DNA of 64,000 bases, from the NCBI RefSeq assembly GCF_024372745.1, contig NZ_VOTZ01000012.1:1-64000 (forward strand). Direction: 5' to 3'. The position numbers and the translations under genes are program-made. This stretch comes from Methanocalculus taiwanensis. GTDB lineage: Archaea > Halobacteriota > Methanomicrobia > Methanomicrobiales > Methanocorpusculaceae. Shown here piece by piece: positions 1,432 to 49,637 of this stretch (position 1 is its first letter; the number at the start of each line of letters is the position of its first letter). The notes below the pieces were generated by a model. The model had not been told where the DNA came from. It worked only from the letters and a program-made list of their open reading frames with translations, and made no database searches.

Positions 1432-2259
1432 TCAGAGACAGGAATCTGAACCCCGAATTCGGTTCATGCCTGAATATATAACCGCCCGTGGCCTCCGCAC
1501 AAACCCGGCAACGGTGATATTCAGTTTGTTTGCCATATCAATGCCCGAACTAAACGGTGCATTATTTGATATGATAAGAGGGATACCAACGCGATATGCT
1601 TTCCGGATCATGCCAGCAGGAAGCCTGCCGCTGCATGTCAGGGAACAGGTGGAGAGTGAAGTGCCCTTTATCAGTGCCTTGCCGATTGCTTTGTCGATTG
1701 CAGTATGCCTCCCCATATCCTCGGCATATGCAACCAGATCTCCATTCATTGTAAGAATCAGTGCCGAGTGGGTGCCCCCGGTTTTTTTCCAGGTGTTTGA
1801 AAGATCATGCAGCCTGTCAACTGCTGAGAAGACCGCGTCAACAGGGAAGACGCACCCGTCCGGAAGAGCGGGAGCCTCTTCATCGGATCGGCCGGCATTC
1901 TCAGCCCCTCCTGAACTCCCAACTTCCAGATCATGACTATTAATACAAGCCGCATCGGATCTTGTCCGTATATCTATTGAAAGATCATCGATTCTGATCG
2001 AGTCAATCTCATGTATGCCCTGTAAAAACCCCTCATCAATGATAAAGCCAACTGCAAATTCCACAAGTTCATCCGGCGTTGCCACCATTGTCGTGCAATG
2101 CTCTCCATTCAGGAACAAACGCACCTGTTCCTCAATACAGATCGAAACGGCATCTGAAACAAACCGGGATCCATCAAATACAAGAACAGGATAATCCCGC
2201 GTCAGATCGCATTCTTTCCCCCGTGATGAGGATATTTTCAATTCAAATGCATCATTCAT
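1432..2259 (-). CDS. fdhD: FdhD, sulfur carrier for formate dehydrogenase maturation
   Basis: A 275-aa FdhD family protein. In E. coli FdhD passes sulfur from a cysteine desulfurase to the molybdopterin cofactor of formate dehydrogenase. Visible family motifs are TGGTHSA (160-166), EDMGRHTAIDKAIGKAL, SGRLP and the C-terminal GFVRRPRAVIYSG. The redox CxxC loop of the E. coli protein appears replaced by GSSGGA at 114-119, with only an isolated Cys105 nearby, so the sulfur-transfer mechanism may differ. It lies downstream of fdhAB on the same strand but has its own TATA box. Confidence 0.93.
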   Translation of the reverse strand: MNDAFELKISSSRGKECDLTRDYPVLVFDGSRFVSDAVSICIEEQVRLFLNGEHCTTMVATPDELVEFAVGFIIDEGFLQGIHEIDSIRIDDLSIDIRTRSDAACINSHDLEVGSSGGAENAGRSDEEAPALPDGCVFPVDAVFSAVDRLHDLSNTWKKTGGTHSALILTMNGDLVAYAEDMGRHTAIDKAIGKALIKGTSLSTCSLTCSGRLPAGMIRKAYRVGIPLIISNNAPFSSGIDMANKLNITVAGFVRRPRAVIYSGMNRIRGSDSCL

Positions 2260-2296
2260 CAGGTATAGTATGGAGAGAGAACATCATGAGCATTTC

Positions 2297-2307
2297 TTTT
2301 TATATTG
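2297..2307 (-). promoter_or_regulatory. TATA box of fdhD
   Basis: AATATAAAAAG on the minus strand, about 40 nt before the fdhD start at 2259; a start site near 2275 would leave a leader of about 15 nt. Together with the terminator at 2400-2432 it suggests fdhD is transcribed separately from fdhAB. Confidence 0.45.
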
Positions 2308-2399
2308 AGTTAATTATGTCAATTAAATGTACTCCATATTTACAATAATAGTGACCAGGAGGATCTGAGAAACAGATAAAAATAGACAAACAGAGAACA

Positions 2400-2432
2400 A
2401 TTTTTTAAAAAAATCATATGGGAGTATTCCCA
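2400..2432 (-). terminator. Terminator behind fdhAB
   Basis: Minus-strand hairpin TGGGA/TCCCA (2419-2432, 4-nt loop) followed by a run of seven T at about 2407-2413, directly after the fdhB stop. Confidence 0.6.
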
Positions 2433-2448
2433 CAATGTTTTCAATTCT

Positions 2449-3693
2449 TTATTCTTTGAAGACGTTGTCAAAGATCTGGTCTGAGCCTGTGTCATCAAGA
2501 CGCTTCCGCTCAACCCTCTCCTCGGCATAGGCAAGGACTGGTGGATCCATGTTGATACCGGGTGTGAAGCCAAACATCTTCTGAAGCTCAACCTGCTGGG
2601 CGTGCATGAAGAGTGCATTTGGAATATCCATCGCACAGAGTTCCTCGCACTGGCCACAGTTGATACAGGAGTCCGAGATGTGGGCAAACCGGATCATGTG
2701 GAACATGAAGCTTGGGGGCACCTGTCCGGGCTTTACAAGGTGAGGCTTCTTGGTGCTGCACTCGACGCAGTAGCAGATCGGGCAGTTCTCAATGCATGCG
2801 TAGCATTTGATACACTTTGAAGTCTCTTTCATGATCTTCTCAAGACGCTCACGGCCTTCGCCGAGCGCTTCGAAGTCATGCTGCCGCCACTTGTCACCAA
2901 GTTTCAGCATTGCATTCTCGACTTTGCTGCGGATTGCGATACCCTTTTCGTCTGCTGCTCCGGTCTCAAGAGTTCCTGCCTTTACAGCACCATTTACAAG
3001 GTTTGCTCCCTTCTCGGAACAGACCTCAACAAAGGTTGCCTTTCCGGCTTTGTCACCGATGACACCCCAGTTACCACAGGCAAGGTCTGCCTGGCGGGGG
3101 ATCTTCATCTTGCACCGGCGGCAGTTGCTCCTCCGGCCGTAGCCTTCTTCCTCAAGCTCATCGATGGAGATTCCCTTGTGCTGTCCATCCTTTGTGACAA
3201 TGATGAACTGGCCCTTGTCGATCTCCTCTTTCACAACGTCAGCTGGATCAACTTCGAACTTCTCCTTGATCATCTTCCGGGCAACAACCGGGGAGACTGT
3301 CCCACCACAGTTGACACCGATCATGATGACGTTGTCGAGGTTGATCTGGTTCCTCTTGGCAAGCTCATAGAATGCCATTGCATCGCATCCCTTTACGGGG
3401 ACGGCGATCTTCATGGTGCCTGCACCGCCGAGGTACTTCTTGATCATCTTCGGGATGAGCAATGTACCGCAGTGGAGGGATCCGGCAGATCCTACGATCT
3501 CAGCCGGATCGGTGATGAGTTCGAGTGTTGCATCATAGATGTCTGCTCCCTTCTTGACAGCAAGGACACCATCAACCATCTTGCTCTCAAGCGCGTACTT
3601 CAGGAGCGTGGATACTGCTCCTCCGCACTCACCTTTCTCAGCAAGTTCTGATTCCTTTGCCCATGCATAGAGCATATCGCCTTTTGCTACCAT
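2449..3693 (-). CDS. fdhB: Formate dehydrogenase beta subunit (F420-reducing)
   Basis: A 414-aa FdhB/FrhB family protein. It takes electrons from FdhA and reduces coenzyme F420 through FAD and iron-sulfur clusters in the cytoplasm. Visible: N-terminal FrhB-type domain with KGCDAMA (101-107) and CGGTVSP (129-135), CRRCK at 191-195, and two ferredoxin motifs, Cys294/297/300/304 with extra Cys308/312, and Cys343/346/349/353. It lies 2 bp behind fdhA, so the two are translated from one message. In related methanogens the FdhAB dimer can also feed electrons to heterodisulfide reductase. Confidence 0.97.
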   Translation of the reverse strand: MVAKGDMLYAWAKESELAEKGECGGAVSTLLKYALESKMVDGVLAVKKGADIYDATLELITDPAEIVGSAGSLHCGTLLIPKMIKKYLGGAGTMKIAVPVKGCDAMAFYELAKRNQINLDNVIMIGVNCGGTVSPVVARKMIKEKFEVDPADVVKEEIDKGQFIIVTKDGQHKGISIDELEEEGYGRRSNCRRCKMKIPRQADLACGNWGVIGDKAGKATFVEVCSEKGANLVNGAVKAGTLETGAADEKGIAIRSKVENAMLKLGDKWRQHDFEALGEGRERLEKIMKETSKCIKCYACIENCPICYCVECSTKKPHLVKPGQVPPSFMFHMIRFAHISDSCINCGQCEELCAMDIPNALFMHAQQVELQKMFGFTPGINMDPPVLAYAEERVERKRLDDTGSDQIFDNVFKE

Positions 3694-13032: not shown

Positions 13033-13944
13033 ATGGAGAACATCGTATTAAGTATTGGAGTAGCAGCATTTGCGGGAGCGCTTGCCGCTGTGGCAGGGGC
13101 AGCCGAGGATACCGAATCCAATATCGGATCCCAGGGTGACCCGAACTCACAGGTTCAGCTCGCACCGCAGATGGGATACATGCACCGTATCTTCAATAAG
13201 GCTGTGGCAGGTGAGCCACCATCCTGGGCTCTCTGGATCGCTCTTGGTGCGGGTGTTGCATGGGCATTTATGGCAATGAACGTCAATCCGGTTCTTGCTA
13301 TCATCCTTGGAAGCGTACTGGCATCTTTTGTTCAGGGCGTATATGCAACCACCGCGTATCTTGGCAGGACTGCAAGTCTCGCCAAGTTCGGGCAGCCGGT
13401 CTATGTTGATATCCTGAAATCGGTTACACCGGTCACAACAGCTCATGCATTTGTTGCGATATTTGCAACGGTAACAATCTGTTACCTGATGAACGCAGTA
13501 CTCGGCCATCCGTTCCCGCTTCCGATCCTCGGTATTATCTGGGGTATCGCACTTGGAGCCGCCGGATCAGCCGTTGGAAATCCGTATTACGGGAAAGAGC
13601 GCCAGTACCAGAACCAGAAGTTCGGAGCAGGTGTCCCTATTTCAGCATCCGGAAACATCGTCCGCTATGCTGAGGCAGGCGAAAGAAGCTCACTGGACAA
13701 TGGCTGGTTCACCGCAAAGTACGCAGGACCCGCATCTGGTATCTGCTTTGGCCTGATCGTCTTCTTCGAACTCTGGAGGCACCTCATCTTCGAACATTAT
13801 TTCGGAGGATGGGGCTCAGTCATCGTCGGAGGAATTATTGTTCTTCTCATTACGATCATGGCACGGTTCATTGAGGTCTGGGCACGCAAGACCTACGGCC
13901 CATATACGGCGCCAGAGAAAAAACCTGATGAGGAGGCAGCATAA
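13033..13944 (+). CDS. mtrE: Tetrahydromethanopterin S-methyltransferase subunit E
   Basis: A 303-aa polytopic membrane protein and first gene of the mtr operon. The Mtr complex transfers the methyl group from tetrahydromethanopterin to coenzyme M and exports Na+. Recognised by the N-terminal hydrophobic stretch followed by EDTESNIGSQGDPNSQVQLA and by GNPYYGKERQYQNQKFG. At least six membrane segments can be seen; MtrC, D and E form the membrane part of the complex. AGGGAG lies 10 bp before ATG 13033. The gene overlaps mtrD by one base (TAATG). Confidence 0.98.
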   Translation: MENIVLSIGVAAFAGALAAVAGAAEDTESNIGSQGDPNSQVQLAPQMGYMHRIFNKAVAGEPPSWALWIALGAGVAWAFMAMNVNPVLAIILGSVLASFVQGVYATTAYLGRTASLAKFGQPVYVDILKSVTPVTTAHAFVAIFATVTICYLMNAVLGHPFPLPILGIIWGIALGAAGSAVGNPYYGKERQYQNQKFGAGVPISASGNIVRYAEAGERSSLDNGWFTAKYAGPASGICFGLIVFFELWRHLIFEHYFGGWGSVIVGGIIVLLITIMARFIEVWARKTYGPYTAPEKKPDEEAA

Positions 13945-14801
13945 TGTCAGCAATCGCAGCTAAACCCGCCGGCGGCGCAGAAATGCCCAAGGGTCCGGCA
14001 GCAATCGCAATTGTATTACTGCTCGTTGTCGTCGGTATCGGGTACTATATGACCATGGCAGGCTTCTTCACGATGGCCATTTTCTATTCATTAATCGGCA
14101 TCATCGTCGGAGGAATGCTTGTTACATTCAGTGTCCACCTTGTTCCGGTCGGTGGAGCACCTGCCGCAATGGGCCAGGCACCAGGTATTGCTACCGGTGT
14201 TACGATGCTCGCAGCTGGTGCAGGCCTTGCCGGTCTCTTTAAGGGAGCATGGGCAGCCCAGTTTGGCTACCTTCCGGCACTTGGAACAGGAGCTATCGGA
14301 GGCGCACTGTTGATGGCACTGACCTGTATGTTCGTCAATGTCACGTACGTCTATGGTATGGGCATTCCGTCAGCATCCGGAAAGGTCAGAAATGATCCCA
14401 TAACCGGCGACTCACAGGACGAGTACAAGAGCCAGGGTACCGAAGGCCACGGCCTGCCGTTCATCTCCTATGTAGGCGGTGTCCTTGGCGGCCTTATCGG
14501 AGGTTTTGGCGGAACACTGATCTACATCTCGCTCTATGATGCATATGTAAACGGGCTTCCCACACTGATGGGTGGAACGACAGAGAGCATCATGCCGATT
14601 GCAGTCAGTGTTGCAGGTATCTTTGCTATCGGCATGTTCCTTGTCAACGCTGTCCTTACCGCGTACAACATCACCGGTACAATCGAGGGTCCGCATGACC
14701 CCAAGTTCAAGCGGTTCCCACGGGCTATCGTTGCCAGTGCCGTTGCATCAGCATTAACCGGACTGCTCGCACTGATGATCATCGTGCCGATGCCATTCTG
14801 A
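13944..14801 (+). CDS. mtrD: Tetrahydromethanopterin S-methyltransferase subunit D
   Basis: A 285-aa polytopic membrane subunit of the sodium-pumping Mtr complex. Recognised by GGMLVTFSVHLVPVGGAPAA (around residue 58), YGMGIPSASGKVRNDPITGD and GPHDPKFKRFPRA near the C-terminus. The start codon shares its A with the mtrE stop, so translation is probably coupled; GGAGG lies a few bases upstream inside mtrE. Confidence 0.98.
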   Translation: MSAIAAKPAGGAEMPKGPAAIAIVLLLVVVGIGYYMTMAGFFTMAIFYSLIGIIVGGMLVTFSVHLVPVGGAPAAMGQAPGIATGVTMLAAGAGLAGLFKGAWAAQFGYLPALGTGAIGGALLMALTCMFVNVTYVYGMGIPSASGKVRNDPITGDSQDEYKSQGTEGHGLPFISYVGGVLGGLIGGFGGTLIYISLYDAYVNGLPTLMGGTTESIMPIAVSVAGIFAIGMFLVNAVLTAYNITGTIEGPHDPKFKRFPRAIVASAVASALTGLLALMIIVPMPF

Positions 14802-14811
14802 GGTGAAGAAG

Positions 14812-15657
14812 ATGACAGTAAAAGTTGAAGCATCCGCAGACGCAATCCCCCACAACACCCTGTTGATTGTCGGATTAATCGGATCTATCGTCTGTATCTA
14901 CCTGACATACCTCAATACCATCACCGGACTTGATGTATTCTCGTTCTTCGGCGGTATTGGTGCAATCATCGCCCTTATCTGGGGTACAAGCACCATCAAG
15001 AGGCTCTGCAGCTACGGTATCGGAACAGGCGTTCCATCCGCAGGCATGGTCGCATTTGGCGCAGGTATCATTGCAATGCTCGTTGGAACAAAGTTCGGCA
15101 TCATGTCACCAGTCGCCGCTCTCATCATTGCAGCAGTCTCAGGTGCCATCTTTGGTTACCTCGCAGACAGTGTGCTGAATATGAAGATCCCGGTGCTGGT
15201 TCAGTCCTTAGCTGAACTCTCGATCATCGGAGCACTCACCATCATGGGATTCACCGCAATGGCAACCGGAGACTTTACCTTCGGCGTCCTGACAGCAGGA
15301 ACAATCAGCATCTTTGGATTCGCAGTTCCCGCAGCACAGGCATCGTTTGTCGGCGGCGGCATTACCGCAGTTGCATTCATGCTCGGAGGCATTGCCATTC
15401 AGCACCCGTTCAATGCAGCACTTGGCCCATCCAACACACAGGACCGGACACTGATGCTCGCAGCAGAGTGCGGCTTCCTCTCCATGATCATGATGGCAAT
15501 CATCTCGTTTGCTTTCATATCAATGGGATCAGCACTCCTTGGGCTTCTGATTGCAATCATTGGATGGGGCTACACCTACGCACAATTCATTGACCTCTCG
15601 AAGCGCGATGCAGCCGATTGGCTTGATGCCAAGATGATCGTGGAGACCGAGGACTAA
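14812..15657 (+). CDS. mtrC: Tetrahydromethanopterin S-methyltransferase subunit C
   Basis: A 281-aa polytopic membrane subunit of Mtr. The frame is open from a GTG at 14803, but that GTG is part of the ribosome binding site GAGGTG, so ATG 14812 is the better start. Family strings: SYGIGTGVPSAGMVAFGAG (about 65-83) and the C-terminal IAIQHPFNAALGPSNTQDRT. The gene is 10 bp behind mtrD. Confidence 0.97.
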   Translation: MTVKVEASADAIPHNTLLIVGLIGSIVCIYLTYLNTITGLDVFSFFGGIGAIIALIWGTSTIKRLCSYGIGTGVPSAGMVAFGAGIIAMLVGTKFGIMSPVAALIIAAVSGAIFGYLADSVLNMKIPVLVQSLAELSIIGALTIMGFTAMATGDFTFGVLTAGTISIFGFAVPAAQASFVGGGITAVAFMLGGIAIQHPFNAALGPSNTQDRTLMLAAECGFLSMIMMAIISFAFISMGSALLGLLIAIIGWGYTYAQFIDLSKRDAADWLDAKMIVETED

Positions 15658-15673
15658 ACTGGAGGTGAAAGAC

Positions 15674-15961
15674 ATGGGATATGTTCTTGTATTACCTGAG
15701 TTCGGCCTTGTTGCCGATCCAGTTCTCGGATTCGTGACGACAGCCGGAGAGTCCTACCAGCCGATCATTGATCGGGTTGCTGAACTCGACAAGGTTGCAG
15801 ATGACCTGGTCAATATGCTCTCTGGTGAAGGAAATCTTCTGAACAGCTACCCCGGCCGTGAAAAATCACTTCTTTATGCCGGTGGAGTTACCGCATTCTG
15901 GTATGGCCTTGCGGTTGGTCTGCTGATTGCAGCCGTCGTTGCATTACAGTACCTGGGGTGA
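15674..15961 (+). CDS. mtrB: Tetrahydromethanopterin S-methyltransferase subunit B
   Basis: A 95-aa small subunit with one C-terminal membrane segment (about 72-94) and a soluble N-terminal part. As with mtrC, an in-frame GTG (15665) lies inside the ribosome binding site GGAGGTG, so ATG 15674 is preferred. It starts MGYVLVLPEFGLVADPVLG, close to known MtrB. Its 3' end also forms the left border of the first copy of the 532-bp repeat. Confidence 0.95.
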   Translation: MGYVLVLPEFGLVADPVLGFVTTAGESYQPIIDRVAELDKVADDLVNMLSGEGNLLNSYPGREKSLLYAGGVTAFWYGLAVGLLIAAVVALQYLG

Positions 15962-16484
15962 AGAAAGATGGCAGAAAAGAAATCACCGGCAAGCGGATGG
16001 CCAACCGTCAAGGGAGACTTCCATTCTGGCGACGCAAACAGCTGTGTAGCTGTTGTCACCATGGGATCCCACCTTGATGAAGCGGGCATCTGTGCAAGCG
16101 GAGCTGCATTATGCGGATCATGCAAGACCGAGAACCTCGGGCTTGAGAAGATCATCGCAAACATCATTGCAAACCCAAACATCAGGTTCGTCCTCGCGTG
16201 TGGAACGGAAGTGAAAGGCCACTTAAGCGGTCAGTCACTTGAAGCACTCCACAAGGGAGGCGTCTCAGGCGGTAAAATCGTCGGAGCCGAAGGGGCAATT
16301 CCCTTCATCGAGAATCTCGACGATGCGGCTATCAAGCGTTTCCAGGAACAGGTTGAATACGTCAACATCATGGAGACTGAGGACGTCGGCAAGATCAACG
16401 CCAAGATCGCAGAACTCACGGGACGTGACCCGGGAGCATTTGCCGGAGACCCGATGATTGTCGAGGTCAAAGAGGCAGGCGGAG
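15953..16484 (+). repeat. 532-bp tandem repeat, copy 1 (MtrA domain)
   Basis: Matches 16879-17410 at a fixed offset of 926 bp. Reading both copies side by side I count three mismatches, at about 15980, 16445 and 16447. The repeat starts at the CTGGGGTGAAGAAAG ribosome binding site and ends in the Gly-rich linker after the corrinoid domain. Confidence 0.95.
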
Positions 16485-16693
16485 CAGGTGGCGAAGAATC
16501 AACCGGCGAAGTCAAACCACTCTCAGGAGAACTTGCCCTCATCCATGCCCGGATGAAGATAATCCAGGGAATGGTCACCGATATCGGGTACCGTGACAGG
16601 TTCGCAGCTGGCGTATACTCAGGAAAAATCGAAGGGCTGATGATTGGTCTTGTGGTAATATTTACCATTATTGGATTCCTTCTGATGGGGTGA
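15968..16693 (+). CDS. mtrA: Tetrahydromethanopterin S-methyltransferase subunit A (corrinoid protein)
   Basis: A 241-aa MtrA, the corrinoid-binding subunit that shuttles the methyl group between MtrH and coenzyme M. His85 in [13 protein letters not shown] corresponds to the cobalt ligand of studied MtrA. The soluble domain spans about 1-170 and is followed by a linker, a short MtrF-like helix region and one membrane segment (about 219-240). Residues 1-174 are almost identical to the second copy at 16894. It overlaps the mtrF ribosome binding site region and sits in the normal place between B and F. Confidence 0.98.
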
Positions 16694-16698
16694 GTAAA

Positions 16699-16887
16699 AT
16701 GGCAGGTTCTAGCATCAGAATGACATCAATTGATAACATGGTTGAGAACATCCGATACAAGGCGCAGATCATCGCCAGAACCAATAAGCTTGATTCTGGC
16801 ATAATGGCTGCAGGAATCCCCGGATTCGTTGCCGGGCTTCTCCTTGCCTTGATCTTCGTGATGGTGCCGATCCTGGTTCTGGGGTGA
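16699..16887 (+). CDS. mtrF: Tetrahydromethanopterin S-methyltransferase subunit F
   Basis: A 62-aa subunit with an amphipathic N-terminal part and one membrane segment (about 39-60). An upstream in-frame GTG at 16690 lies within GGGGTGA, which is both the end of mtrA and the likely ribosome binding site, so ATG 16699 is chosen. MtrF resembles the C-terminal part of MtrA, a known relationship in the family, and the string IDNMVENIRYKAQIIAR fits it. It lies between the two MtrA-encoding genes. Confidence 0.93.
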   Translation: MAGSSIRMTSIDNMVENIRYKAQIIARTNKLDSGIMAAGIPGFVAGLLLALIFVMVPILVLG

Positions 16888-17410
16888 AGAAAGATGGCAG
16901 AGAAGAAATCACCGGCAAGCGGATGGCCAACCGTCAAGGGAGACTTCCATTCTGGCGACGCAAACAGCTGTGTAGCTGTTGTCACCATGGGATCCCACCT
17001 TGATGAAGCGGGCATCTGTGCAAGCGGAGCTGCATTATGCGGATCATGCAAGACCGAGAACCTCGGGCTTGAGAAGATCATCGCAAACATCATTGCAAAC
17101 CCAAACATCAGGTTCGTCCTCGCGTGTGGAACGGAAGTGAAAGGCCACTTAAGCGGTCAGTCACTTGAAGCACTCCACAAGGGAGGCGTCTCAGGCGGTA
17201 AAATCGTCGGAGCCGAAGGGGCAATTCCCTTCATCGAGAATCTCGACGATGCGGCTATCAAGCGTTTCCAGGAACAGGTTGAATACGTCAACATCATGGA
17301 GACTGAGGACGTCGGCAAGATCAACGCCAAGATCGCAGAACTCACGGGACGTGACCCGGGAGCATTTGCTGCAGACCCGATGATTGTCGAGGTCAAAGAG
17401 GCAGGCGGAG
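16879..17410 (+). repeat. 532-bp tandem repeat, copy 2 (fused to mtrG)
   Basis: Second copy of 15953-16484. The sequences diverge sharply right after GCAGGCGGAG at 17410, where the mtrG-derived part begins, and upstream of 16879, inside the end of mtrF. Confidence 0.95.
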
Positions 17411-17631
17411 GCGGTCTTGAAACATCAGTTGCCGGAGCGAACCCCCAGTTCCTTGAGATTGAGAAACGGCTTGACGCAATTGAGAAGAAGATCGAATTTG
17501 CAGACGCAGAGATTGCCCAGAGGGTGGGCAGGAAGATCGGACGTGACATCGGCATCCTCTATGGCCTTGTAGCAGGGCTCATCGTCTTCATCATGCTGCT
17601 TATGCTCCTTCCGAAAATTAGTATGCTCTAA
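16894..17631 (+). CDS. MtrA-MtrG fusion protein
   Basis: A 245-aa protein in the place where mtrG normally stands (order E-D-C-B-A-F-G-H). Residues 1-174 are a near-perfect copy of the MtrA corrinoid domain, including the cobalt ligand His85. Residues about 178-245 are not MtrA-like: [18 protein letters not shown], then [18 protein letters not shown] and a final membrane segment are MtrG. No separate mtrG is present, so this gene most likely supplies MtrG with a second corrinoid domain. It would be automatically named mtrA. The fusion follows from the 532-bp repeat. Confidence 0.9.
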
Positions 17632-17647: not shown

Positions 17648-18670
17648 ATGTTCAGGTTTGAGAAAGAACAGACCGTTCTCGACTTTAATGGAATCAAGAT
17701 CGGTGGACAGCCAGGCGAATACCCAAGGGTACTCGGCGCATCCATCTTTTATAACAAGCACGAGACCGTGCTTGACGATCACACAGGAAAGATTGACAAA
17801 GCAAAGGCAGAAGCGCTCTGGAACCGCTGTATGGAGTTGTACGATATCACCGGCAACCCATACTTCATCCAGATCATCGCCGAATATGGCGAGGCATTCG
17901 AGAGCTACTTCAGCTGGTTTGACAGTATCGACAACAAGACCCCCTTCCTGATGGACTCATCAGCACCGGCAGCACTTGCCCATGCATGCGAGTATGTCAC
18001 GGAAGTAGGCCTTGCAGACCGTGCAATCTACAACTCAATCAACGGTTCGATCCCGCAGGAGAACATTGATGCACTCGCTGCTTCAGATGTTAACTCCGCA
18101 ATCGTCCTCGCCTTCAATCCCGGTGACCCTTCAGTTCCCGGACGTGAGAAGGTGCTCGTTGAGGGTGGCGTTGCAGGTCAGGCAAAGGGTATGCTCCAGA
18201 TCGCAGAAGAGGCAGGTATCACCCGCCCGATCCTCGACACAGCAGCAACCCCACTCGGCCTTGGATCAGGCGGCTCCTTCCGTGAGATCCTTGCATGCAA
18301 GGCGATCCATGGTCTTCCGACCGGTGGTGCTTACCACAACATGACTGTGTCATGGACCTGGCTGAAACGCTGGAGAAAGAGCGTCCTTGAAGAGCAGTAC
18401 AAAGGAAAAGATGTACTCCTCGAACAGATGGGACACCACCACTTCGGCGGATTCCAGGGAATCAAGCAGGCCGCATGGTCAAGCCCCGATATCGGGTGCA
18501 ATATCATGGCAATGACTCTTGGTGCCGACTTAATTATGTTCGGTCCAATCGAGAACTGCGAGGGTGCAGCAACTGCAACCGCATTCACCGACATCGTGCT
18601 TGCTGAAGCATGCCGCGAACTCGGTGGAGACGTGCAGGAACCAAACCACCCCCTGAATAAACTCGTATAA
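17648..18670 (+). CDS. mtrH: Tetrahydromethanopterin S-methyltransferase subunit H
   Basis: A 340-aa MtrH, the peripheral methyltransferase that moves the methyl group from methyl-tetrahydromethanopterin to the corrinoid of MtrA. Recognised by the start MFRFEKEQTVLDFNGIKIGG, TPFLMDSSAPAALAHACEY and NSINGSIPQENIDAL, with a barrel-type fold. It is somewhat longer than typical family members. GAGGTG lies about 10 bp before the ATG. It is the last gene of the mtr operon and is followed by a strong terminator. Confidence 0.98.
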   Translation: MFRFEKEQTVLDFNGIKIGGQPGEYPRVLGASIFYNKHETVLDDHTGKIDKAKAEALWNRCMELYDITGNPYFIQIIAEYGEAFESYFSWFDSIDNKTPFLMDSSAPAALAHACEYVTEVGLADRAIYNSINGSIPQENIDALAASDVNSAIVLAFNPGDPSVPGREKVLVEGGVAGQAKGMLQIAEEAGITRPILDTAATPLGLGSGGSFREILACKAIHGLPTGGAYHNMTVSWTWLKRWRKSVLEEQYKGKDVLLEQMGHHHFGGFQGIKQAAWSSPDIGCNIMAMTLGADLIMFGPIENCEGAATATAFTDIVLAEACRELGGDVQEPNHPLNKLV

Positions 18671-18683
18671 ATCGAGGATCAGT

Positions 18684-18709
18684 GGTGGTGGGAAAAACCA
18701 CCTTTTTTT
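18684..18709 (+). terminator. Terminator behind mtrH
   Basis: Hairpin GGTGGT/ACCACC (18684-18702, loop GGGAAAA) followed at once by seven T (18703-18709). It reaches the stop codon of the convergent radical SAM gene. Confidence 0.75.
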
Positions 18710-20012
18710 ATTTCCCGTACCGAAGAAGGCATTCGGTTGCTCTTCTGATATCAGATCCCTGTTTCCGTACTTCCGCAAGATAGAGATCAAATGTCCGATC
18801 ATCGGCCATTGAAAGTACCGGCTTGTTGAGATCGGCATGGAGCATCAGATCAAAGGCACGCGCTTCTGCAACAGACAGTCCAAGAGCCTTATATTCTCCC
18901 GTATGAGGCATATAGACAGGGTTTTCATGTTGGGGTGTGGAGAGGACAAGATCTGCAAGCGGCGTTTTAGGAATCGGCTCTGCCGCACTTACAAAAACAT
19001 CGTCAAGTGAGAGCTCTTCGATCAGATCTTTGGTCTTCTGATAGTCATCTTGGGATTCGCCGGGATATCCCACAATAAAACTCCCCGCAACCTTCAGCCC
19101 ATGGTCACGGCAGCGGCGCACGGCATCCCTCACCTGATCAACATCTGCCCCTTTCCGCATCTTTCTGAGAATGGCTTCACTGCCTGACTCAATCCCAAAA
19201 AAGACCCAGCCGATGGTATAGTCACGGATTGCATCAAGCACCTCGTCAGTGATGCAATCCACCCGGATATCCGGGGAGGAGAGATTCTTCCTTCCCATAA
19301 TCCCGGCAATCCCACTGAGCAGATCAACAAAAGCAGGGACATTCATCTTCCCCTGCTCAGAGGCATAGAGCGATCCGGTTCCCCCGGAGATGGAGACACG
19401 ATTCGCCCCGGCATCCCTGAATGCCTGCACTTCAATGAGAATAGCCTCAATACTCCGGCTTCTGATCTCCTGCCCGAAGTACCGGGGCACCTGGCAGAAG
19501 CCGCATCCGCCGATACAGCCACGGTGCGTTTCAATATATACATTCGCACCCCTGATATTCTGTTTCCCGATATCAGAAGGTATCAGGGGAAGAGGACGCT
19601 CCATTGGCGCTGGAGAAGATGGACCGGTAGTGACCATCCTCCCTTCTTCCATATAGGCAATCCCCTGCATTTCGGGTGAGGGGCCATCACGAACCAGCCG
19701 TGGCGTGGTCACTTCACCCTCTCCAATAACAACTGCATCCGGGGATAATTCACCAAGTACCATAGCCGGATGCGAAGATACCGGACCACCGACATAACAC
19801 CTGCCGCCCCGCTTCTTATGTGACTCAATTACTTTTTTTATACGATCATCAAAGAGATGCTGGGTGGAATAGAGCGATAGAAGCAGGATTTCAGCAGTTG
19901 TATTTTCAATGAAATGCGATATGGAAACATCATGTCCCTGCTCCCTGAGCACTCCGCCGATCACCATTGCGCCATAAGTGACGATATCCGGAGAGATGAC
20001 CTTGATCCTCAT
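18708..20012 (-). CDS. B12-binding/radical SAM protein, candidate McrA modification enzyme
   Basis: A 434-aa protein with an N-terminal cobalamin-binding-like domain (about 1-125; GGPVSSHPAM, VVIGEGE) and a radical SAM domain whose cluster motif is Cys166-x3-Cys170-x2-Cys173 (CIGGCGFC). SISGGTGSLYA and VFFGIESGSEAILRKM follow. This architecture is typical of radical SAM C-methylases. Known Mcr modifications include methylarginine and C-methylglutamine, both made by B12-dependent radical SAM enzymes. The position right behind mtr and near mcr supports such a role. It is not clearly Mmp10, so the glutamine methylase is the favoured guess. Convergent with mtrH. Confidence 0.75.
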   Translation of the reverse strand: MRIKVISPDIVTYGAMVIGGVLREQGHDVSISHFIENTTAEILLLSLYSTQHLFDDRIKKVIESHKKRGGRCYVGGPVSSHPAMVLGELSPDAVVIGEGEVTTPRLVRDGPSPEMQGIAYMEEGRMVTTGPSSPAPMERPLPLIPSDIGKQNIRGANVYIETHRGCIGGCGFCQVPRYFGQEIRSRSIEAILIEVQAFRDAGANRVSISGGTGSLYASEQGKMNVPAFVDLLSGIAGIMGRKNLSSPDIRVDCITDEVLDAIRDYTIGWVFFGIESGSEAILRKMRKGADVDQVRDAVRRCRDHGLKVAGSFIVGYPGESQDDYQKTKDLIEELSLDDVFVSAAEPIPKTPLADLVLSTPQHENPVYMPHTGEYKALGLSVAEARAFDLMLHADLNKPVLSMADDRTFDLYLAEVRKQGSDIRRATECLLRYGK

Positions 20013-20128: not shown

Positions 20129-20329
20129 ATGCCAGGATTTGATAGAACAGGACCCCGCGGTATGGGACCACTAACTGGACGGCGTTTGGGGCGCTGCGTT
20201 GCCATGGAACCTGACGTACAGGATGCAGTACAGACTGAAAGACAAATGCTAATCGGACGTGGAAGAGGCGGAGTCGCACGCGGAGGCGTTAGGGGATTTG
20301 GCAGGAGATGGACACAGAGACGGTTTTAA
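20129..20329 (+). CDS. Small DUF5320-type protein
   Basis: A 66-aa protein starting MPGFDRTGPRGMGPLTGR, the signature of the DUF5320 family of short Gly/Arg-rich proteins of unknown function. They are often found next to NifX- and MinD-like genes. The C-terminal half is Arg/Gly-rich. GGTGATAC precedes the ATG. It is a paralogue of the next gene, and even the leader sequence (CAGGTGATAC-ATGCCAGGATT region) is shared, pointing to a local duplication including the promoter. Confidence 0.75.
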   Translation: MPGFDRTGPRGMGPLTGRRLGRCVAMEPDVQDAVQTERQMLIGRGRGGVARGGVRGFGRRWTQRRF

Positions 20330-20524: not shown

Positions 20525-20758
20525 ATGCCAGGATTAGATGGAACAGGACCCCAGGGTATGGGGCCAATGACCGGAAGGCGCATGGGGCGCTGTGTTGCCC
20601 CGGCACCTGACGCACAGAGTGCAGTACAGACTGAAAGACCAATTTACGGACTCGGAAGAGGCGGTCTGCCACGTGGATGCGGCAGAGGCTTTGGCGGAGG
20701 ACGTATGCGTGGAGGGAGATTCTTCCAGCCCGCAAACCAGACGGAGGTGCAAGAGTGA
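20525..20758 (+). CDS. Small DUF5320-type protein, second copy
   Basis: A 77-aa paralogue of the gene at 20129, starting MPGLDGTGPQGMGPMTGRR; the middle part (VQTERPIYGLGRGG) also matches. The C-terminal tail is longer. It overlaps the start of the NifX-like gene by 4 bp (GTGA), so the two are cotranscribed and probably translationally coupled. Function unknown. The family context suggests a partner or chaperone for an iron-sulfur or molybdenum protein. Confidence 0.78.
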   Translation: MPGLDGTGPQGMGPMTGRRMGRCVAPAPDAQSAVQTERPIYGLGRGGLPRGCGRGFGGGRMRGGRFFQPANQTEVQE

Positions 20759-45324: not shown

Positions 45325-46257
45325 TTATAATCCGGCTTTTATACGGATATCCTCAGGCAGGGTCATAACAACCGGTTCCCTGCATATCCGCTCCATAAAT
45401 GCAGAATCGCTGATAGATTCAGGATTTGGGTTGATTCGTGCGATCAGAGTACAGAACGCGCACATTCCATCCAGGCCGGATGATCCGGTTTTCTGGAAGA
45501 AGACTCCCATATTAAATGCATATGAGCCAAAAGAGCGAAACAGATCGGTAATCCGAACAATGTCACGGCCCAGAGTTTCTGTCAGAGAGAAGAGTTCATT
45601 GATTGTTCTGATCGGCAGGACACCCCGGATCTCACATTCACCAATCGGAACCGGGTTTGCATACCAGAAGATCTCTTCCCCAAAGAGGTGCCGGGGGCCG
45701 CCAGCCTCCTCATCAACAACAACTTCCCAGTAATCACCCGATGCAGTCTTTGCAGATGCCTCAAGATAGAGTCTGCAGAGTGAAGCCGGTTTTTTGTCAG
45801 CCATCCCCTGAAGATGGGGATGCAGGAGGCTTGCACCAGCTGACGGAAGGAAGTTCCAGTGTATCGAGGGGTAGCCGGGGTAATCCTGCAAAGATTGTGC
45901 AGCTCCAAAGAGGGCATCGGAGAGTTGCCTGGAGGTGAAAGATTCGACCATATGTGCCTCTGTTATAACGGTCACTGTATGCCGGTCTGCGAAAGGATAG
46001 AGATTTGGAAATGTGACACTTTCACCTTTTGTTATCCAGCCTCCATTGGAAAAACCACATGTTGATGAAAAGATACGTGATCTGCAGAAAGGGCAATCCT
46101 TCACCTCATATTCGAAAACCGGAGGGAAAGACCCGGTATTAATTCCCCGCGTTCCCCGGAGCGGGCTGATCCGGCAGGAAAGACCTGTTGCAAATTCGGT
46201 CCTGTAGCTTATACGTGAACGGGGCGATTGGATCTCCGTTGTTGAGAAGAGAGACAC
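45325..46257 (-). CDS. GalT-like nucleotidyltransferase (HIT superfamily)
   Basis: A 310-aa protein resembling galactose-1-phosphate uridylyltransferase. The HIT-type active site is LLHPHLQG (about 151-158), with its middle His as the expected nucleotide acceptor. CPFCRSR (about 56-62) and CAFCTL near the C-terminus could bind metal. The true sugar substrate is not certain, since GalT-related enzymes include other nucleotide-sugar transferases and phosphorylases. It lies 80 bp downstream of mer on the same strand. The start appears to be GTG 46257 without a clear ribosome binding site. Confidence 0.8.
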   Translation of the reverse strand: MSLFSTTEIQSPRSRISYRTEFATGLSCRISPLRGTRGINTGSFPPVFEYEVKDCPFCRSRIFSSTCGFSNGGWITKGESVTFPNLYPFADRHTVTVITEAHMVESFTSRQLSDALFGAAQSLQDYPGYPSIHWNFLPSAGASLLHPHLQGMADKKPASLCRLYLEASAKTASGDYWEVVVDEEAGGPRHLFGEEIFWYANPVPIGECEIRGVLPIRTINELFSLTETLGRDIVRITDLFRSFGSYAFNMGVFFQKTGSSGLDGMCAFCTLIARINPNPESISDSAFMERICREPVVMTLPEDIRIKAGL

Positions 46258-47370: not shown

Positions 47371-47558
47371 TTATCATTTTGCCCTGATACTGCTTCCACA
47401 GCCGGAAAAACCGGTTGCAGAATGGTCAGATATGAGGTTTTGCAAGCCAATGATCTGGTTTAGTGTGAACTGAAAGGCTTTATGCCTTCGGGATAATATC
47501 AAATACCAATAGTATGGGCAGCTGCACCCGGCTGCGCCATCTGAATGGACTCTCTGCT

Positions 47559-49637
47559 ATGAAGGCACTTATCATCGGACTGGGAGGAGCTGGATCACGC
47601 ATCGCCGATATTCTCCACGATCATGACAGGAGAAGCGGTACAAATAGTGTTCTGGCGGTAGCCATAGACACAGATCTCTTTAGCATCAAAGAGCTGAAGC
47701 ATATACCAAATACCCAGCGGATTGTTCTTCCTACTTTCGAGAATACTGATGAAGAGATAGACGGAGATGTTTTAGATGTTGCTGAGATGATCCAGCATAT
47801 CCAGCAATGCAATACCGTCGAGATTGATGCAGTGATCATCTGTTCCGGGCTTGGAGGAAGACATGCTGATGCCATCCCCCTGCTCGTTGAGAGGATCAGG
47901 GACTCTTTTTACGAGCCGGTTATCTGTGTCCTGACGCTCCCCCTACGGGATGAAGGGAAACGGATCTCCGCACGGGCCGCCAACCAGATCGATGCTATTG
48001 AGCCTGTTGTTGACGGCTGCATCATCTTTGATAACGAAACGTGGTACAGAAAGATTGCAACTGAACTACTCAGGCTTGAGCGGACCAAAGAGACCGGAAA
48101 TGCCGACGAGATGGATAATCTGCCAGATGATGGCGCTGACATTGATGACGAACGCCTCACCAGAGCCCCATTGAATCCCCGCGAACGAAATAACCTCCTG
48201 AATGAGCGGATTGCCCGAAGATTCGGGCTTCTGCTCCGTGCCGGGGAATTTGTTGATGGAGGACGGCCGATAGCCGAGGTTGTGCTTGATGCAGGCGAGG
48301 TGATCAACACCATCTCCGGAATGGGCATGGTTGCTATCGGATACTCTACCGAGATGATCCCACGCCAGAAGTTCTCTATTTTTAACAGGCTTAAGAAAGA
48401 TTATTCTGATTTTGAAGAGGGGCATCTGCGTGCTTCCCGTGTCGTGGAACTCGCAAAACGGGCAATCTACCAGGAGATATCAGTTCCATGCGACCTGACA
48501 AGTGCAGGTAAGGCACTCGTTCTGATCGCAGGCCCAAGCGAGGAGCTCTCGATGAAAGGGTTCCAGAATGTCAGGAAATGGATTGATAGAAGCATATCTG
48601 GCCTTGAAATGCGTGCCGGCGATTATCCGGTCCTGAGTACAAAATACGTCGGCGTGATCATCGTGCTCGCCGGTATCAGAAACATTCCCCGGATCAATGA
48701 ACTCAAAGAGATACGGGATATGTACCTTGAAGAGGAGAGGAAGGAGAGGAAGCAGCAAGAGATCCTCATGATAGAACAGGAGGAGTTAATGCGGGAGAAG
48801 GAAGAGATGGAGAGGATCGCCAGAGAGAGAGCTGAACGGGCTGCACTTCTCCAGCAGGATGAGATCTGGGCTGATGATGATGTTCGGTTTATTGAAGATG
48901 ATCTCGCCACAATACCAGCTTCCGCTGAGGCTCACGTTTGGGAAGAGCAGCAATGGCAGGAGAAGAGTGAGAGGCAGGAGAGAGAGACGCCGGATACAAT
49001 GATCCCTGAGGGAGTGATCCTGCCACAGCGGGGGGAGATGAAAGAGGAGAAGAGAATCAACCTCCCGGGAAGGCAGGCAATTGAAGTTGCAGATATATCA
49101 CGGCAGACTACAATCGGTGGACCGGTAAAACCAAGTGATCGGTCGATGGATGCAGGTGCTCTCAGGATGAAGGAGACACCAACTGAACGTGGGCGTTTTG
49201 TGGTTGATCCTTCACAGGAAGCCTTCTCACTCCCATCAATGGTCAGGGCACGTGATGATTCGTTTGAGGCAAAGGCAATCGCCCTGAAGTCCCATTTCTC
49301 ACGGCCAAGCGACAGTGCCATTGAAGGCGGGGGCATAACCATCAGAAGATCCAAAGTGAAGCCGAAGGATGATCTCTTAACGGGCGGGAGCACGATTGGC
49401 ATCCAGGGTAAAGGCAGACCGGATGATTCGGCATATATGGGCAGATCCGGATCTATTCATCTCGATAAACAGCCCGCTCCAAATGACGACATTATCTCCA
49501 GCCAAAGAAGACAGGGCGGCCAGCCTCGCCCAAGAGATGAGGTGGGTAGGAGATCCAGGTTTGTTGTTATCGGCGATACCCCCTCCTCTTCACGGGAGGA
49601 ACCCGAAGAGGATGAGACGGGGATCACCTGGATCTGA
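47559..49637 (+). CDS. Divergent FtsZ/tubulin-like protein with long C-terminal tail
   Basis: A 692-aa protein whose first 390 residues look like a tubulin/FtsZ fold: nucleotide-loop start IIGLGGAGSRIADIL (5-19), AIDTD at 35-39, and IICSGLGGRHADAIPLL (93-109) where FtsZ has GGGTGTG. The glycines are partly lost, so GTP binding or hydrolysis may be altered. A charged coiled coil (about 393-430) and a tail of more than 250 residues without recognisable domain follow. It resembles the non-canonical archaeal FtsZ-like families implicated in membrane remodelling. The start could also be ATG 47514; no ribosome binding site favours either. Confidence 0.72.
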   Translation: MKALIIGLGGAGSRIADILHDHDRRSGTNSVLAVAIDTDLFSIKELKHIPNTQRIVLPTFENTDEEIDGDVLDVAEMIQHIQQCNTVEIDAVIICSGLGGRHADAIPLLVERIRDSFYEPVICVLTLPLRDEGKRISARAANQIDAIEPVVDGCIIFDNETWYRKIATELLRLERTKETGNADEMDNLPDDGADIDDERLTRAPLNPRERNNLLNERIARRFGLLLRAGEFVDGGRPIAEVVLDAGEVINTISGMGMVAIGYSTEMIPRQKFSIFNRLKKDYSDFEEGHLRASRVVELAKRAIYQEISVPCDLTSAGKALVLIAGPSEELSMKGFQNVRKWIDRSISGLEMRAGDYPVLSTKYVGVIIVLAGIRNIPRINELKEIRDMYLEEERKERKQQEILMIEQEELMREKEEMERIARERAERAALLQQDEIWADDDVRFIEDDLATIPASAEAHVWEEQQWQEKSERQERETPDTMIPEGVILPQRGEMKEEKRINLPGRQAIEVADISRQTTIGGPVKPSDRSMDAGALRMKETPTERGRFVVDPSQEAFSLPSMVRARDDSFEAKAIALKSHFSRPSDSAIEGGGITIRRSKVKPKDDLLTGGSTIGIQGKGRPDDSAYMGRSGSIHLDKQPAPNDDIISSQRRQGGQPRPRDEVGRRSRFVVIGDTPSSSREEPEEDETGITWI

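Follow-up and report, generated by a model that had tools for sequence, protein, structure and literature searches.

The mtr operon of Methanocalculus taiwanensis carries a fusion of mtrA and mtrG at the place of mtrG. The fusion is real, but it has already been described and is ordinary for the order Methanomicrobiales. The gene (16894–17631, + strand) lies within a 64,000-nucleotide stretch of genomic DNA, referred to here as the window, and corresponds to the gene named mtrA-2b by Wang et al. 2015 (G3 5:2475; PMC4632066). The mtrA-2b gene of the order's mtr operon is probably the product of an ancestral fusion with recurrent gene conversion ever since, its protein combining the role of MtrG with that of a second B12 carrier. 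An initial annotation, made from the window alone, had presented the fusion as an unusual discovery; this view does not hold since the arrangement is fixed in Methanomicrobiales and has been in print since 2015.

The fusion gene was delimited by an open reading frame call and by Pfam and NCBIfam models. It is intact from its ATG start and encodes 245 amino acids. The initial annotation had described a complete MtrA corrinoid domain joined to an MtrG tail, and both parts are confirmed. The corrinoid domain (aa. 4–171; 16903–17406, +) is supported by Pfam MtrA (PF04208, E = 3.2e-82, 274.8 bits, cut-off 25), by alignment with the other MtrA copy and by the predicted fold. The cobalt-ligand histidine, equivalent to His84 in M. 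marburgensis, is present as residue 85 (codon at 17146–17148, +), its partner glutamate is present as Glu55, and the GAIPF meander described in PMC4915002 is found as GAIPFIEN at residues 109–116. The protein does not have the C-terminal anchor helix of MtrA and ends as MtrG, so that only the head belongs to MtrA.

A flexible linker rich in glycine and glutamate (aa. 172–183; 17407–17442, +) leads to the MtrG helix (aa. 184–237; 17443–17604, +). The tail matches Pfam MtrG (PF04210, E = 8.7e-24, 83.7 bits, cut-off 27) from position 10 of the 64 positions of the profile, and it also matches the solved MtrG chains 9qtq_S (E = 3.4e-17) and 8q3v_G (E = 1.3e-13). Compared with the stand-alone MtrG of 8Q3V (M. 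marburgensis) and 9QTQ/9QTS (M. mazei), the tail aligns over 53–55 residues that include GRDIGILYG, whereas the stand-alone proteins have no corrinoid domain and have a short N-terminus of their own. The predicted fold (mean pLDDT = 72.8) consists of the MtrA domain, a disordered linker (pLDDT < 50 for residues 170–188) and a long C-terminal helix (aa. 184–244). Both NCBIfam models pass their cut-offs, mtrA with 275.8 bits (TIGR01111, cut-off 249.15) and mtrG with 79.5 bits (TIGR01149, cut-off 50.65). Plain "mtrA" is therefore a plausible automatic name, and the initial annotation was right that such naming could hide the fusion as a duplicate mtrA.

The operon is complete and has the order mtrE-D-C-B-A-F-[A-G]-H. 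According to Pfam, mtrE, mtrD, mtrC and mtrB occupy 13033–15961 (+), a separate and intact mtrF lies at 16690–16887 (+), and mtrH at 17648–18670 (+), so that the fusion is placed between mtrF and mtrH. A normal mtrA with its own anchor helix, mtrA-1 (15968–16693, +), is the conversion partner of the fusion. The mtr operon is situated downstream of the mcr genes, of which mcrB and mcrD were identified by model and the remaining cluster was read by eye. Just downstream of both operons, a gene at 18708–20012 (−) encodes a B12-binding radical SAM enzyme that matches methyl-coenzyme M reductase glutamine C-methyltransferase (TIGR04014, 651 bits).

That the gene stands in for mtrG had been claimed in the initial annotation, and searches of the whole genome (99.86% complete, 69 contigs) bear this out. 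With the MtrG profile, the fusion was the sole match above the cut-off, the other match being at chance level (E = 7.8). With a stand-alone MtrG from another genus as the query, the fusion locus alone was recovered and no separate mtrG was detected in the genome. The nearest named full-length relative is from Methanocalculus chunghsingensis, with 91% identity along the entire protein. The metagenome-assembled genome UBA456, labelled Methanocorpusculaceae, has 94% identity over residues 8–245, and Methanocalculus sp. UBA9912 gives a partial match (94% over residues 127–245). The window thus most resembles Methanocalculus and is well inside an order already known for the MtrA-MtrG fusion.

The same fusion was sought in related genomes, as the initial annotation had advised. 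Among 199 genomes of the order Methanomicrobiales, an MtrG match was present in 163, and matches located away from contig ends fall mostly in frames of about 240–320 residues, as expected for a fusion. Among the matches listed for a sample of 296 genomes of the phylum, MtrG frames outside the order are 67–143 residues long and unfused. Most near-complete genomes of the order have two strong MtrA domains. In the species for which both MtrA copies were readable, the MtrA-MtrG arrangement and both genes were found in 34 of 34 (25 genera); the locus L046/L127, in which MtrA is scrambled, the first copy is broken and a stretch is masked, was left out of the statistics. A fusion confined to one genome is thus rejected by its presence across the order.

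Short MtrG frames within the order were considered as candidates for an unfused mtrG and rejected, as the ten that were fetched all adjoin a contig end. For many of the other short frames, a contig start is no more than a few hundred bases away. Other assemblies are broken at the near-perfect repeat, and many MtrG matches in the order are similarly close to the start or end of a contig. Near-identical domains break short-read assemblies in the mtr operon, and as a result, draft genomes can seem to be without mtrG or to have a partial mtrA.

A long near-identical repeat can also mislead an assembler, and since many related drafts break at this site, it could be argued that the fusion is an artefact of assembly or annotation in which two repeat copies were wrongly joined to mtrG. 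This explanation is refuted for practical purposes. The same arrangement is present in many single-contig genomes from other genera, where the copies are often different enough to be told apart, and it has been published independently (PMC4632066).

In at least four genomes of a single family of the order, a third and divergent MtrA homologue (E = about 1e-35 to 1e-37) was detected outside the mtr operon. It may be comparable to the additional MtrA groups reported by Wang et al. 2015.

The two MtrA domains of a species have evolved in concert. In the window, a homogenised tract of 491 bp (16879–17369, +), not mentioned in the initial annotation, differs at a single position from 15953–16443. 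It extends over the ribosome-binding region and the greater part of the MtrA domain. Counted from the A of the start codon as 0, mtrA-1 and the fusion are identical from −15 to +7, differ at +8 and are then identical over 467 consecutive bases from +9 to +475, with divergence setting in soon after. Across the 34 species (438 positions), the median DNA identity of the two MtrA domains within a species is 0.968, compared to 0.733 between species. Within-species values range from 0.815 to 1.000, and in five pairs the domains are identical. In a maximum-likelihood tree, both copies of a species are sisters in 32 of the 34, the pair from the window included. The remaining two species belong to the same genus, and their four copies cluster with one another. 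Placing all mtrA-2 sequences in a single clade gave a tree that was rejected (p-AU = 8e-76).

These observations are accommodated by a model in which the mtrA corrinoid domain would have been duplicated, and the duplicate fused to mtrG, in the ancestor of Methanomicrobiales, with recurrent gene conversion afterwards holding the two MtrA domains alike. The grouping of one species' copies would equally be expected if duplication and fusion had occurred recently and repeatedly, species by species. However, the junction, the linker length, the position between mtrF and mtrH and the conserved MtrG tail are common to all 34 species, and under repeated duplication the identical event would have had to occur dozens of times. 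Wang et al. give the same reason for rejecting it (PMC4632066), and it is considered here to be very improbable.

An old fusion with gene conversion is also what has been published. Wang et al. found mtrA-2b in all eight Methanomicrobiales genomes examined and described it as a second mtrA that had lost its own anchor and become joined to mtrG between mtrF and mtrH, with long-lasting gene conversion keeping the two MtrA domains of a species alike (PMC4632066). The order, the operon place, the domain order and a homogenised MtrA domain beside mtrA-1 are all shared with the gene in the window; nothing essential differs, and the window adds one species. Methanocalculus is absent from the species abbreviated in the figure legend of that paper. 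A later genome-wide survey recovered the same MtrA-MtrG case (PMC6053082), and a 2023 paper describes mtrF and mtrG as "subject to frequent gene fusion" (PMC9982363).

Two other arrangements may be compared. In Methanococcales and Methanocella arvoryzae, a parallel MtrA-MtrF fusion, mtrA-2a, likewise places a second and homogenised MtrA domain on a single-helix stalk subunit beside mtrA-1; the partner there is MtrF rather than MtrG, and the origin is considered independent (PMC4632066). In the EDCB[AF]FGH operons of TACK archaea, Methanoliparia and ANME-1, mtrA is also fused to a stalk subunit, but the partner is a duplicate mtrF and the operon as given has no second corrinoid domain (PMC9982363). 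A further parallel MtrA-MtrF fusion outside Methanococcales was encountered in Methanocella sp. PtaU1.Bin125, where mtrA-1 is followed by a fusion with a near-identical MtrA domain (positions 1698–3259 of the locus).

The consequences of the fusion may be considered in terms of the known architecture of Mtr. The (MtrABCDEFG)3 complex has a central stalk with a cytosolic core of MtrA anchor helices and a membrane core of MtrG helices, each contributed once per protomer, while the MtrA corrinoid domain hangs on a disordered linker rich in glutamate and glycine (PMC10998594, PMC12774963). In 8Q3V, the threefold membrane seal and its kink involve MtrG residues Ile48, Gly49, Ile52, Leu55, Val59 and Leu62 (PMC10998594), all of which are found in the aligned tail of the fusion. 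The MtrG part is therefore proposed to take the normal place of MtrG in the stalk and in the three-helix seal at the centre of the membrane part. Tethered by its flexible linker, the fused MtrA domain would then be a second B12 carrier, accepting methyl groups from MtrH and handing them to coenzyme M at MtrCDE. Since the MtrA anchor and MtrG are each needed once per protomer, each protomer would carry two corrinoid domains and the trimer six, as opposed to the three of the solved Mtr complexes. The initial annotation had suggested that the stoichiometry and perhaps the mechanics of Mtr are changed; judging from the subunit architecture, this may reasonably be said to follow.

The second MtrA domain is under constraint, given that the cobalt-ligand histidine and the motif TENLG are each present in 68 of 68 MtrA copies from the 34 species. 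Together with the homogenisation, the histidine suggests that both corrinoid domains are loaded and cycling. Alternatively, the fusion may be made while its MtrA domain is spare, structural or regulatory, leaving MtrA-1 as the only carrier of methyl groups. The M. mazei Mtr functions with a single MtrA in each protomer (PMC12774963), and a search of the open-access literature found neither biochemistry, including that of the second domain, nor a structure for an Mtr with the fusion. A spare domain nevertheless sits poorly with a ligand histidine retained in 34 of 34 fusions and with gene conversion that leaves the domain with few or no differences from the working copy, and it is regarded as unlikely.

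Slightly less likely again is the release of free MtrG, through proteolysis of the linker or an internal start, so that the mature complex would contain MtrG in its ordinary form and the MtrA domain would be soluble and detached. Disorder is predicted for the linker, and an in-frame ATG is located at most 30 codons before the MtrG part in the window and in 26 other species. An internal start is no general feature, however, as in-frame ATG, GTG and TTG codons are all absent from this stretch in 7 of the 34 species, and residues 172–183 resemble an ordinary MtrA linker that is uncleaved in the solved complex (PMC10998594).

Two features of the fusion weigh against the proposed double role. Measured to chosen landmarks, the linker is 23–26 residues long in the fusion and mostly 26–29 in MtrA-1; being slightly shorter, it may have a different reach. 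Matches to the MtrG profile start mostly at positions 5–11 in fusions and mostly at 1–2 in stand-alone MtrG. With the first nine or so profile positions unmatched in most fusions, there may be a change in the short strand made by MtrG together with MtrB.

A more tentative proposal concerns how six working corrinoid domains per trimer might be used. In the M. mazei complex, three MtrH dimers (six barrels) are bound along with three MtrA domains, and the authors think that the membrane-proximal barrel is the main one in MtrA binding (PMC12774963). As there are six MtrH barrels and only three MtrA domains, the MtrG-borne domain may possibly serve the little-used second barrel, although this is rather doubtful. 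If true, a protomer could have one domain undergoing methylation and the other driving the sodium step at the same time. More broadly, Methanomicrobiales, and Methanococcales through the other fusion, should have two corrinoid domains per protomer where the solved complexes have one. The two structure papers (PMC10998594, PMC12774963) make no mention of a fusion, and mechanisms that assume three carriers may not extend to these methanogens.

Elsewhere in the window, a 310-amino acid open reading frame at 45325–46257 (−) had no Pfam match at E = 0.01. Two similar small open reading frames of the DUF5320 type, the first of which is confirmed by Pfam, are located at 20129–20329 and 20525–20758, adjoining genes that resemble iron-molybdenum-cofactor-type and Mrp/MinD-type ATPase proteins. 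The gene at 47514–49637 (+) encodes 707 amino acids, of which residues 15–176 weakly match FtsZ (E = 1.3e-8, far under the FtsZ cut-off); the product, in which a long C-terminal part follows, is possibly a divergent GTPase of the tubulin/FtsZ-like kind.
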